The notes under the pieces were generated by a model. The model saw only the letters and a list, made by a program, of their open reading frames with translations, had not been told where the DNA came from and ran no database searches. Of a DNA stretch of 64,000 nucleotides, positions 1-4,028 are shown piece after piece (position 1 is the stretch's first letter; the number at the start of each line of letters is the position of its first letter). The position numbers were made by a program, and so were the translations under genes. This stretch comes from Hyphomicrobiales bacterium (lineage in GTDB: Bacteria > Pseudomonadota > Alphaproteobacteria > Rhizobiales > Rhizobiaceae): NCBI GenBank assembly GCA_900474095.1, contig UCOA01000035.1, positions 1-64,000 on the forward strand, read 5' to 3'.

Positions 1-2673
1 CCCAGCCGGTTCAGCGGCGGCGGCTTCTGCCTCCGTAACGGCTTCTGCCTCCGGAACAGCTTCTGCGGGCGCTGCCTGTTCCGGTGCCGGCTCGGAAGCC
101 TGGGCCTCGTCGCTTGGGGCATCCGCGTCGTCGTGGTCGGCGGTCTCGGCCGGCGTTTCGACAGCGGTCGAGTCCGCCGGCGTGGCCGCGTTGCCCGCCT
201 GCGCGGACAGGAACGCGACAGCTTCCTCGGCTTTCACGCTGTCGGCGCGATAACCGAGGCCCTTGAGGATTTCTTCCATATCGTCGGGCGTCGCACCGAG
301 AATGGACAGCATTGCCGTCGTCGCGGTGAAGCGGCGGCCGTCATAGGCTCCGTCCGGGCGCGGCGTCGTGCCCGGCTTCCACTGCAAGAGCGGCCGGATG
401 AGGTCGGCGAGCCGCTCGAGAATATCGATGCGGACGGCGCGCTTTCCAAGGAAACGGAAGCCGGCGAGTTTGTAAAAATTGCGCTCGAACGACGGATCGG
501 TGACGACCGAAGTACGGCCAGCCGCCAGGATCGGGATGAGGTCGCCATAACCGGGCTTGTCCAGGCCGTCGTTCTTCAAGGCCCAGAGCAGCGTGATGAG
601 TTCGGCCGGAGCGGGCTTCAGCAGAGCCGGCATGAAGATGTGATAGGCGCCGAAGCGGATGCCGTGGCGGCGGATCGAGGCGCGCGCCTCCTGATCCAGC
701 GACTTGACCTCGTCGGCGACGTCGCGGCGGAACATCACGCCGAGATTTTCGACGAGCTGGAACGCCAGGCCCTTGGCAAGGCCTTCGAGATCTTCAGCCC
801 GCGACAGATCATCGAGCGGCTTCAGGACCGTCGAGATATGATGATTGACGAAGCGCTCGATGCGGGCAAGCACATAATCGCGGGCGTTGCCCTGAAGCTG
901 CTCGTCGGCCAACAGTATGACGCGCGGCCGCATGACATGCTCGCTCGCTGCCAGCCGAGCGACGGGATCGCCGAGCCAGCGCACGAGACCATCGGAAGCA
1001 AGCGCCAGATCGGCATTGCCCGCCGCATGCAGCCGCGCCGCTCGCGCTTCGAATTCCAGCGCAAGCGCCTTTTGTGCTGCACCCTGTATCGCGCGCGCGT
1101 CGAGACCGTCGGTCACTGCCGCCAGCGTGAATCGGAACCCGGCCAATTGTCCCACATGATGTCCTTCAACAAAGACATCGCCATTTACACTGATTTCAGC
1201 TTCCAGCATCGCATTCTCTCTCAGGCGCTTCATGAGCACAGATGTCCTGCGATCAACAAAGCGTTTGGTCAACCTTTCATGTAACGCGTCAGACAATCGA
1301 TCTTCGATTTCCCGCGTCTTTTCTTGCCAGTGTGTCGGATCGGCAAGCCACCCCGGACGGTTAGACACATAGGTCCATGTCCTGATTTGTGCAATTCTCG
1401 CGGACAATGTGTCGATTTCACCATCCGTAAGGTCCGCGCGGCGAACCTGTTCGGCCATGAAATCTTCGTTCACTGTGCCACGCCGGACGAGATCGGCATA
1501 GATCGTCGAGATCAGATCGGCGTGTTGCGCTGGCGTTATACGACGATAGTCTGGAAGCGCACAGGCCTCCCAGAGTTTTTCTACACGCTCCGGTGTCGTT
1601 GCGACGCTTGTGATTTCCGGATAACGCGAAAGATAGTCCAGCGCCTGCTGGTCGACGGCCGGCAAGGCCCGCGTCAGCCCGTTTACCGTGGGTGCGACAT
1701 CGAGGCTTTTCTTCAGGGCCGCAAGCGAGGCGAAGTCGAGCGCCTTCGAGCGCCACTGCAGCACCCGCACGGGGTCGAACTGGTGCGATTCGATGCGGTG
1801 GACGAGCTCGTTGTCGAACGGCTCCACCCGCGAGGTGACGCCGAACGTACCATCGCGCAGGTGGCGACCGGCTCGGCCTGCGACCTGCGCCAGTTCGCCC
1901 GGGTTGAGATTGCGGAACTGGTAGCCGTCATATTTCCGATCCTGGGCGAAGGCGACGTGATCGACATCGAGGTTCAACCCCATGCCGATTGCATCGGTGG
2001 CCACCAGATATTCGACGTCGCCGGCCTGATAGAGCGCGACCTGCGCATTGCGCGTTCGCGGCGACAACGCCCCGAGCACAACCGCGGCACCGCCTCGCTG
2101 GCGGCGGATCAGTTCGGCGATCGCATAGACCTCTTCCGCCGAAAAAGCGACGATCGCAGTGCGCTGCGGCAGCCGGGTGATCTTCTTCGAGCCGGCATAG
2201 AGGAGTTGCGACAGGCGCGGCCGCTCGACGACAGTAATGCCCGGCAGCAGGTGCTCGAGGATCGGCCGCATGGTCGCTGCGCCGAGAAGCAGGGTTTCGC
2301 TTCTGCCGCGCAGATGCATCAGCCGGTCGGTGAAAATGTGGCCGCGCTCGAGATCGCCGGCGAGTTGCACCTCGTCGATCGCGACGAACGCCGCCTTGGT
2401 CTCGCGCGGCATGGCCTCGACGGTGCAGACCGAGAAGCGAGCCATATGAGGCGTGATCTTTTCCTCGCCGGTGATCAGCGCGACATTGTGGGCACCGACC
2501 TTCTCGACGACACGGGTATAGACCTCGCGGGCAAGCAGCCGGAGCGGCAGCCCGATCACGCCGGATTCATGCGCGACCATGCGCTCGATCGCATAATGCG
2601 TCTTGCCGGTATTGGTGGGGCCGAGGACCGCGATCACACCGCGGCCGCTCAAGATCATGGGTTGGTCAGGCAC
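1..2673 (-). CDS. SUV3/MgpS-like DExH-box ATP-dependent helicase, 3' end cut by window edge
   Basis: Reverse-strand reading frame open from a GTG at 2673 (alternative ATG at 2658) to the left edge, 891 codons visible. Helicase motifs are clear: Walker A GPTNTGKTHYA near residues 18-28, the DEVQ box near residue 98, and motif VI QVAGRAGRHLR near residue 268. This set matches the SUV3-type RNA/DNA helicases conserved in Alphaproteobacteria. The part nearest the left edge (about 1-180) codes a low-complexity tail rich in Ala, Glu, Pro and Asp, a common disordered extension in this family. A purine-rich AGGA precedes the GTG. Its exact substrate is not known from sequence. The two long plus-strand frames lying opposite it are shadows. 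The frame stays open upstream of 2673, so the start is the least certain part. Confidence 0.85.
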   Translation of the reverse strand, partial: MPDQPMILSGRGVIAVLGPTNTGKTHYAIERMVAHESGVIGLPLRLLAREVYTRVVEKVGAHNVALITGEEKITPHMARFSVCTVEAMPRETKAAFVAIDEVQLAGDLERGHIFTDRLMHLRGRSETLLLGAATMRPILEHLLPGITVVERPRLSQLLYAGSKKITRLPQRTAIVAFSAEEVYAIAELIRRQRGGAAVVLGALSPRTRNAQVALYQAGDVEYLVATDAIGMGLNLDVDHVAFAQDRKYDGYQFRNLNPGELAQVAGRAGRHLRDGTFGVTSRVEPFDNELVHRIESHQFDPVRVLQWRSKALDFASLAALKKSLDVAPTVNGLTRALPAVDQQALDYLSRYPEITSVATTPERVEKLWEACALPDYRRITPAQHADLISTIYADLVRRGTVNEDFMAEQVRRADLTDGEIDTLSARIAQIRTWTYVSNRPGWLADPTHWQEKTREIEDRLSDALHERLTKRFVDRRTSVLMKRLRENAMLEAEISVNGDVFVEGHHVGQLAGFRFTLAAVTDGLDARAIQGAAQKALALEFEARAARLHAAGNADLALASDGLVRWLGDPVARLAASEHVMRPRVILLADEQLQGNARDYVLARIERFVNHHISTVLKPLDDLSRAEDLEGLAKGLAFQLVENLGVMFRRDVADEVKSLDQEARASIRRHGIRFGAYHIFMPALLKPAPAELITLLWALKNDGLDKPGYGDLIPILAAGRTSVVTDPSFERNFYKLAGFRFLGKRAVRIDILERLADLIRPLLQWKPGTTPRPDGAYDGRRFTATTAMLSILGATPDDMEEILKGLGYRADSVKAEEAVAFLSAQAGNAATPADSTAVETPAETADHDDADAPSDEAQASEPAPEQAAPAEAVPEAEAVTEAEAAAAEPAG

Positions 2674-2853
2674 TGTCTCGATCCTGCGCACTTTCAGTCT
2701 GCGAAGGCCATTCACGGCGGTAAAGCCGTTCAACCGGCGCAGCACACATGCCCATGCAGCGTCACAAACGCAAGAGCGCTGTAGCATGAAATACTGCAAA
2801 TGGGGCGTACGGCCTGGGATTCCACCCGCATTTTCCTGAATCGGAACAGCTAT

Positions 2854-2875
2854 GGAACGAATCGGCGACGAATCG
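2854..2875. repeat. 22-bp direct repeat, copy 1 of 2
   Basis: The 22 bases at 2854-2875 recur exactly at 3111-3132, in the same orientation. The core is GAATCGGCGACGAATC, that is two GANTC sites 11 bp (about one helical turn) apart. The downstream half of this copy also forms a stem with GATTCGTC at 2888-2895, followed by TTTTGTT, which could fold as a weak plus-strand terminator. Confidence 0.7.
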
Positions 2876-3110
2876 TTGACTCCTTCGGATTCGTCTTTTG
2901 TTCACTGCTAGATATTGATTTTCTGAGCCGGATTCGCACCAGATGCTGAATCGGTGCCTCCCGGAAAAACGGACGGCCAACGTCAGCTTCGTCAGCATCC
3001 CGCACTCGATGAGATTCAGAATCCAAATAACTGAAAATTCAGAAAAATTTAACCAAGTCGCTCAATCGGTTCGCCGCGGAAAACCGATCGCCGCTATTGT
3101 GCTCAAAGGC

Positions 3111-3132
3111 GGAACGAATCGGCGACGAATCG
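3111..3132. repeat. 22-bp direct repeat, copy 2 of 2
   Basis: Exact second copy of the repeat at 2854-2875, with two GANTC sites starting at 3116 and 3127. It lies between phbB and the first copy, in the same non-coding stretch. Confidence 0.7.
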
Positions 3133-3302
3133 CGGCACCCGAAATTTCCCGATTTGTTCCCTACAAGATATGGTAGGAACATGTAACCTTTGCTCTGAAG
3201 CCGTACCATCTCAGACGTGCAGCAGGAGCGAATCGCAGCCTTGTCCGATAGCGCAAAACGGCGCCACAAGGGCGCCGTTCGCAACAGCAAGAACCAATTC
3301 TG

Positions 3303-4028
3303 TCAGACGAAGAACTGGCCACCATTGGCGGAAATCGTGGAACCGGTGATGAAGCCGGCATCGTCGGACGCCAGGAACACGGCGATACGGGCAATCTCCT
3401 CCGGCTCGCCGAGACGGCCGACAGGGATCTGCGGAATGATACGTTCGGCCAGAACCTTTTCCGGAATTGCCCGGACCATTTCAGTCCCGACATAACCGGG
3501 GCAGATCGCGTTGACGGTGATCCCCTTCGATGCCCCTTCCTGGGCCAGTGCCTTGGTGAAGCCGAGATCGCCCGCCTTGGCGGCCGAATAGTTCACCTGG
3601 CCCATCTGGCCTTTCTGGCCGTTGATCGAGGAGATATTGATCACCCGGCCGAAATTGCGGTCGCGCATGCCGGCCCAGATCGGATGCGTCATGTTGAATA
3701 GGCCGCTGAGGTTGGTGTCGATGACGTCCTTCCAGTTCTCCGGCGTCATCTTGTGGAACATGGCGTCGCGGGTGATACCGGCATTGTTGACGAGAATTTC
3801 GATCGGGCCGAGATCGGCCTCGACCTTGGCGATGCCGGCCGCGCAAGCCGCGTAGTTGGAAACGTCCCATTTAAAGGTCGGAATGCCGGTTTCGGCGGTA
3901 AAAGCCTGCGCCTTCTCGTCATTGCCGGCGTAGTTTGCCGCGACCCTGTATCCTGCGCCCTTCAAGGCGATGGATATGGCAGCGCCGATGCCGCGTGATC
4001 CACCAGTGACCAAAGCTACTCTGCTCAT
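3303..4028 (-). CDS. phbB: Acetoacetyl-CoA reductase (PHB synthesis)
   Basis: Short-chain dehydrogenase of 241 residues that reduces acetoacetyl-CoA to (R)-3-hydroxybutyryl-CoA with NADPH, the second step of polyhydroxybutyrate synthesis. The N-terminal glycine motif TGGSRGIG starts around residue 8; NNAG lies near residue 88; the catalytic YSAAK follows an ISS strand; the C-terminus GGQFFV is typical of PhaB enzymes. ATG at 4028 is chosen because AGGGAGAG sits just upstream; a longer frame to 4085 lacks this and is out of family length. It follows phaA on the same strand after 128 bp, so the two are probably one operon, as in other rhizobia. Confidence 0.96.
   Translation of the reverse strand: MSRVALVTGGSRGIGAAISIALKGAGYRVAANYAGNDEKAQAFTAETGIPTFKWDVSNYAACAAGIAKVEADLGPIEILVNNAGITRDAMFHKMTPENWKDVIDTNLSGLFNMTHPIWAGMRDRNFGRVINISSINGQKGQMGQVNYSAAKAGDLGFTKALAQEGASKGITVNAICPGYVGTEMVRAIPEKVLAERIIPQIPVGRLGEPEEIARIAVFLASDDAGFITGSTISANGGQFFV

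Follow-up and report, generated by a model that had tools for sequence, protein, structure and literature searches.

Why should sites for the methyltransferase CcrM (GANTC) crowd into one intergenic region of a stretch of DNA that is otherwise depleted in them, and what is such a region doing upstream of a helicase gene? The window (the whole 64,000-nucleotide, or 64-kb, stretch of DNA analyzed here) carries 13 GANTC sites between 2818 and 3234 by direct count, irrespective of strand (positions 2818, 2838, 2859, 2870, 2878, 2888, 2931, 2948, 3013, 3019, 3116, 3127, and 3230), eight of which fall within 2818–2952, exactly as the first-pass annotation had reported. The flanks are also as described there, with the helicase gene on one side, phbB and phbA on the other, and all of them on the minus strand. 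At the density found elsewhere in the window (1.26 GANTC per kb), only ∼0.5 sites would be expected in these 417 bp, the next-best 417-bp stretch within the 64 kb holds 3, and the window as a whole has 93 sites versus 367 expected from dinucleotide shuffles. Because dinucleotide shuffles of the cluster itself (n = 2000) average 3.5 sites, the “one or two” originally expected is too low for the local composition; because the largest of these shuffles reached 12, local composition alone can come close to the 13 observed. In the chromosome of a same-genus relative (G003, sampled as 80 stretches amounting to 1.6 Mb, or 36% of 4.40 Mb, with 10,000 bases given as N and 1.27 GANTC per kb), the homologous cluster is the largest, at 12 sites, and the next three have 7, 6, and 6. 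Equal GANTC density elsewhere, which the annotation had named as evidence that would speak against it, was thus found neither in the 64 kb nor in the G003 sample.

The gene beside the cluster occupies positions 1–2673 of the minus strand; it begins with GTG at 2673, its 3′ end lies outside the window, and it encodes a Suv3-like DEXQ-box RNA helicase. Its product matches the Pfam families DEXQc_Suv3 (1e-26) and Helicase_C (2.9e-9), and its best solved chain is that of a Suv3 helicase (6f4a_B, 1e-36). From its Suv3 type and from synteny beside phbB, it is probably the same gene as S. meliloti SMc03877. The latter is an RNA helicase that has been named mgpS (PMC4941405).

On comparison of sequences, the GANTC cluster proves to be the most conspicuous part of a composite element that precedes mgpS and whose unit is about 90 bp long. 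The unit is described by a 94-position sequence model (R1) built from 43 sequences, the window's own included. R1 recovers two units on the plus strand, an mgpS-proximal one at 2835–2921 (73.9 bits, E = 3.3e-22) and a distal one at 3108–3177 (42.5 bits, E = 2e-12) that reads GGAACGAATCGGCGACGAATCG ... TTTGTTC ... CAAGATATGG and is without the first LexA half-site; only two places in the window's own genome reach E < 0.05, both at the mgpS locus. Across 51 mgpS loci, whose scores are partly circular because 43 of them trained the model, 19 have one unit at E ≤ 1e-4, 21 have two, 10 have three, and 1 has four. Tandem units share one orientation, and the spacing from unit to unit is 178–290 bp in 39 of 44 cases. 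At one locus (L061), R1 additionally gives a match to the opposite strand at the same position; this match overlaps a unit and has been included in the 45 distal units of the 102 matches.

Within the proximal unit, a LexA-type operator (GAACAGCTATGGAAC, of the form GAAC-N7-GAAC) lies at 2844–2858 on the plus strand and is the best LexA-matrix match in the window. The core heptamer, a putative GcrA-type extended GANTC, lies at 2869–2875 (CGAATCG; CGATTCG on the minus strand, that of mgpS), and a mirror half-operator, ATTC-N7-GTTC, lies on the minus strand at 2889–2903, one letter off GTTC-N7-GTTC and 45 bp from the first operator. The 43 rows of the alignment that defines the mirror were chosen by the two GAAC half-sites, so those columns are fixed by the choice itself; in the mirror (NTTC-N7-GTTC), the TC of the first half-site and the whole second GTTC are invariant and the T before TC is present in at least 90%, the other invariant columns being the C-GAA-C of the core. 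When 50 loci are aligned on GAAC-N7-GAAC alone, GAATC stands at the same offset in 49. A dyad (CTAGATATTG) follows at 2908–2917 on the plus strand, and its pattern, CNANATNTNG, is found at the right end of 58 of the 102 units and at the left end of none. The same pattern is present at the right end of the window's distal unit (3164–3173).

GAAC-N7-GAAC is present in 49 of 51 mgpS-proximal units versus 3 of 45 distal units. Within 800 bp upstream of mgpS, it occurs at 25 of 26 loci comprising the window's own and those of other families of the order, and at 24 of 32 loci of the same family; any other spacing from N3 to N15 occurs at no more than 5 and 3 of these loci, respectively, and N7 is thus specific. 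The corresponding figures are 38 for N7 and at most 4 for other spacings among a further 60 loci of the order, and 2 of 29 for N7 in a class-level sample. LexA is encoded in 26 of 26 genomes, and in 25 of the 26 the box precedes lexA by no more than 500 bp (in one of these, the distance of 475 bp is to a partial match of lexA); upstream of recA, the strict box is found within 500 bp in either orientation in only 14 of 25. The mgpS operator has the same form as the boxes that precede lexA and recA in the window's own genome. A LexA matrix made from 37 lexA and recA boxes scores the operator at 16.9 versus 9.0 for the next match in the 64 kb, and scores the homologous G003 box at 14.7, which places it 14th of the 64 matches that exceed 10 in 1.6 Mb. 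The G003 sample contains 42 strict boxes; the one at mgpS has 7 GANTC within 150 bp, and none of the remaining 41 has more than 2. GTTC-N7-GTTC is the LexA consensus given for Caulobacter in PMC12700426, and by its motif, its conservation, and the presence of the box at lexA, the mgpS operator is a predicted site that fits the LexA (SOS) regulon.

As for the core, CGAATC is present in 98 of 102 units and the following base is a purine in all 102, giving CGAATCR in 98, which reads YGATTCG on the mgpS strand. In the further 60 order loci, which did not train R1, 79 matches were reduced to 74 units after five overlapping ones were dropped; CGAATCR is found in 73 of these 74, a figure that is partly selected because the units were found with the model, and in the best unit of all 43 positive loci. 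In Caulobacter, the form activated by GcrA is reported as YGAKTCG or YGAKTCK, an extended motif that the same source did not recover in Brevundimonas (PMC7987155). Five of the 13 GANTC in the cluster (2859, 2870, 3116, 3127, and 3230) read YGAKTCG on the mgpS strand, and 18% of the 2025 GANTC in the G003 sample do so on either strand. One near-invariant GANTC per unit therefore matches the reported motif and constitutes a predicted GcrA site. A CcrM-type RAMA domain is encoded in 15 of 15 genomes tested and GcrA in 19 of 19, the window's own included in both cases, and both proteins are also encoded in genomes without the element.

Beyond the core, GANTC averages 6.1 per 500 bp upstream of mgpS in the window's own locus and those of other families of the order and 7.1 in the family, where seven control pentamers range from 0.4 to 2.2 in the same stretches. 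The further 60 order loci average 4.5 (controls 0.9–1.9), with GANTC absent from the 500 bp counted in 15 of them, and the class-level sample averages 1.5, which is within its control range. At one locus (L322), the core of the element is kept and the best 400-bp count of GANTC is 1. The extra GANTC sites thus vary by lineage, and what they contribute is the least secure component of the mechanism proposed below.

How widely is the element distributed? A DNA search with 2690–3300 matched 30 of 61 genomes, namely the window's own, 24 of 25 from the same genus, and 5 from other genera of the family; among the same-genus genomes, the matches of G008, G014, and G015 are short and G017 has none. 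The loss of the sites in close relatives that the annotation had envisaged as counterevidence is therefore limited to these few cases. With R1 applied to 28 whole genomes (the 150 best candidates scored in each), matches at E < 0.001 define one locus each, which is mgpS wherever mgpS was located, except for one match in G230. Weak off-locus matches (E from 0.003 to 0.09) occur in G112, G018, G000, G013, and G247, and 6 of the 28 genomes (G266, G034, G284, G264, G277, and G099) have no match at E up to 0.1, so the element is apparently dispensable. We also considered a mobile repeat and rejected it, since the whole-genome search gives essentially one locus per genome. In G230, the exceptional match (L263:4011–4084, 36.7 bits, E = 1.1e-8) is a second, weaker unit that lies next to phbB at a distance of 15 kb from mgpS, an arrangement suggestive of an array divided by an insertion.

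At the level of mgpS-upstream loci, the unit is missing from 7 of 58 order and family loci (L041, L065, L069, L070, L071, L074, and L080). The further 60 order loci, hand-picked from other matched genomes of the order and untrained (as is part of the 58-locus and class-level set), have at least one unit at E < 0.001 in 43 cases and none in 17. Outside the order, 6 of 28 class-level loci carry a unit (L093, L095, L099, L101, L117, and L120), and the other 22 have none at E < 5. The order, family, and class sets are the best-scoring 30 of 146, 111, and 90 matched genomes, respectively, and hence lean to close relatives, and related genomes are not independent in any of these counts. The element nevertheless appears to be old and to have been retained at mgpS in a large part of the order as well as in certain members of other orders.

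We hypothesize that this region controls mgpS in cis, as a module in which LexA (SOS) and CcrM/GcrA signals are joined, a reading to which we assign a probability of roughly 0.6 and in which binding and regulation are what we infer. What comparison shows is the unit itself, its near-fixed spacing, its link to mgpS, the proximal LexA-type operator, the near-invariant YGATTCG, and the extra GANTC in many lineages. In such a module, mgpS would be preceded by a tandem array of one to four units, all oriented alike, and LexA would hold the proximal unit until DNA damage occurs. Methylation of the core GANTC by CcrM, together with GcrA and sigma-70 RNA polymerase, would set cell-cycle timing; after passage of the fork, the sites would be hemimethylated for part of the cycle and the output of mgpS would change, and many extra GANTC would sharpen or buffer the methylation signal. 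The position of mgpS close to the origin, as judged by the hemE proxy described below, also counts in favor of the module. Several observations count against the module: a scan of 2600–3320 found no sigma-70-like promoter, the G003 box ranks only 14th by matrix, the recA box is present in only 14 of 25 genomes, CcrM and GcrA are encoded in genomes that lack the element, and PMC7987155, besides the Brevundimonas result, notes that LexA boxes easily overlap GANTC and suggests that such overlap may lack regulatory effect.

The proposal of a methylation-controlled promoter made in the first-pass annotation is therefore carried forward in part. Comparison lends support to methylation-linked control of the helicase (the element and mgpS remain linked, CcrM and GcrA are encoded, and the GANTC is of the extended form), but the dense cluster on which the proposal was built varies by lineage, and the LexA-type operator and the repeated units had been missed. 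If the module operates as we suggest, a fixed LexA–methylation composite would offer a convenient system in which to study the combination of methylation state with DNA damage, and a Suv3-type RNA helicase would join the damage and cell-cycle programmes. If GcrA reads the core, the conserved adjoining purine would be evidence that the extended GcrA motif holds beyond Caulobacter.

CcrM/GcrA-read promoters and LexA-read promoters have each been described before, and their overlap has already been noted. The gcrA promoter of Agrobacterium tumefaciens resembles the mgpS region in having six GANTC in the 250 bp upstream of the gene, with methylation altering the promoter; it differs in serving another gene and in having fewer sites, and its description in PMC11514494 includes, in the parts that concern us, no LexA operator or tandem unit. 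The YGATTCG core fits the YGAKTCG/YGAKTCK of GcrA/CcrM-activated promoters in Caulobacter (PMC7987155), whereas the mgpS site is set in a fixed LexA-operator frame and repeated, and activation there would be by analogy. The ruvC and imuA promoters of Caulobacterales combine a LexA box and a conserved GANTC in one promoter (PMC7987155), whereas GANTC at mgpS also lies outside the box, at a fixed offset, and in box-less distal units. In Brucella abortus, GcrA targets include lexA and uvrA, so that GcrA is found at repair-gene promoters with GANTC-enriched peaks, but mgpS is unmentioned in the main text of that study (PMC6813329). In the openly available text that was examined, we found no description of the element; an earlier prediction of mgpS as a LexA or GcrA target may exist, for example in the figure of predicted alphaproteobacterial LexA targets of PMC3323433.

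An alternative reading would make this a LexA operator region only, with the GANTC sites arising as by-products of degenerate half-sites (GAAC to GAATC) and methylation playing no role. The LexA box is indeed kept where GANTC sites are few, such as at L322, and PMC7987155 proposes overlap of this kind at ruvC and imuA. Yet the distal units are mostly box-less (3 of 45 have a box) and CGAATC is found in 98 of 102 units overall, the enrichment of GANTC extends 300 bp past the core (3.7 per 300 bp), and the base after the core is the purine that the GcrA motif predicts in every one of the 102 units. We therefore regard the by-product reading as unlikely, although it deserves to be taken seriously.

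The region might instead be a structural site rather than a promoter, that is, a methylation-read nucleoprotein array (for timing, titration, or loading) near the origin that borders mgpS by chance. The tandem arrangement, with its near-fixed geometry, would suit such an array, as would an origin-proximal position: with hemE serving only as a proxy for oriC, the distance from mgpS to hemE has a median of 0.14 of the half chromosome and is below 0.25 in 15 of 21 genomes (rounded genome sizes), and hemE lies ∼180–330 kb from the element in six same-genus chromosomes. An origin-proximal mgpS fits a long hemimethylated period, although shared ancestry may explain the position instead. Against an array stand the link to mgpS across families, the location away from the skew minimum, and the six of 28 genomes with no match among their 150 best candidates, and we consider this reading improbable. 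In G003 the element lies at 786 kb and the skew minimum at 930 kb (700–1100 kb block), with a flat floor to 980 kb, and parS-like sites lie at 971 and 973 kb. A replication origin or parS centromere was rejected because the skew minimum, the parS-like sites, and hemE are ∼140–190 kb away in G003, and neither a DnaA box nor parS was found in 2660–3303. With these distances, the absence of a DnaA box from 2660–3303, and the genomes without a match, the replication-linked element suggested by the annotation finds no support. Another G003 cluster, of 6 GANTC in 417 bp (C1 ∼974264; L206), lies near hemE and two parS-like sites.

A motif scan places a CtrA-like half-site, TTAACC, at 3049–3054 on the plus strand, which is TTAACCAT in some relatives. 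With the CtrA motifs as used in PMC11527210 (TTAA-N7-TTAA and TTAACCAT), TTAACCAT occurs at 10 of the 58 order and family loci and TTAA-N7-TTAA at 4, and the window has TTAACC only. Three of the 16 TTAACCAT half-sites in the 1.6-Mb G003 sample are at its mgpS locus, a point in favor of the structural reading; clustering of TTAACC is not unique to it, since 5 fall within one 700-bp stretch of G003 and 3 at the mgpS locus. Tentatively, the tandem units could act as a methylation-read nucleoprotein switch, with LexA, GcrA, and CcrM (perhaps also CtrA) assembled on a fixed near-origin frame. Should this unlikely idea be true, one locus would report both fork passage and DNA damage and set an RNA helicase accordingly, an ancient link in Alphaproteobacteria between replication timing, SOS, and RNA turnover. 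Several smaller features of these loci may be recorded here. TTAACC recurs 155–156 bp apart around the units of L040, L042, L066, L081, and L088; TTAACCATAGGAAAC and GTGGATAA follow the distal units at L272 ∼2166 and L263 ∼4097, in which a partial DnaA box adjoins a CtrA-like half-site; and both occurrences of TTAACCATAGG in the G003 sample are at the mgpS locus.

An RNA feature, for instance a small RNA or a leader in which hairpins are repeated, could account for the inverted half-sites, which could pair in RNA, but the consensus of 43 sequences folds with only −1.37 kcal/mol and 5 pairs and an Rfam search extended to E 1 matched nothing within the element; we rejected an RNA element on these grounds and think the RNA reading very improbable. 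Clustering of GANTC by chance or mutation, for which the best shuffle offers the sole encouragement, is refuted by conservation across the order, the first rank of the cluster in the G003 sample also counting against it, and can be given almost no credence.

Downstream of the LexA–CcrM/GcrA module that we favor, the mgpS leader was inspected by eye on the alignment. A conserved upstream open reading frame was rejected because the alignment indels are not multiples of three. The stretch of leader at 2700–2760, which separates the element from the mgpS start, is also conserved in the genus and appears to contain a small hairpin with a variable loop.
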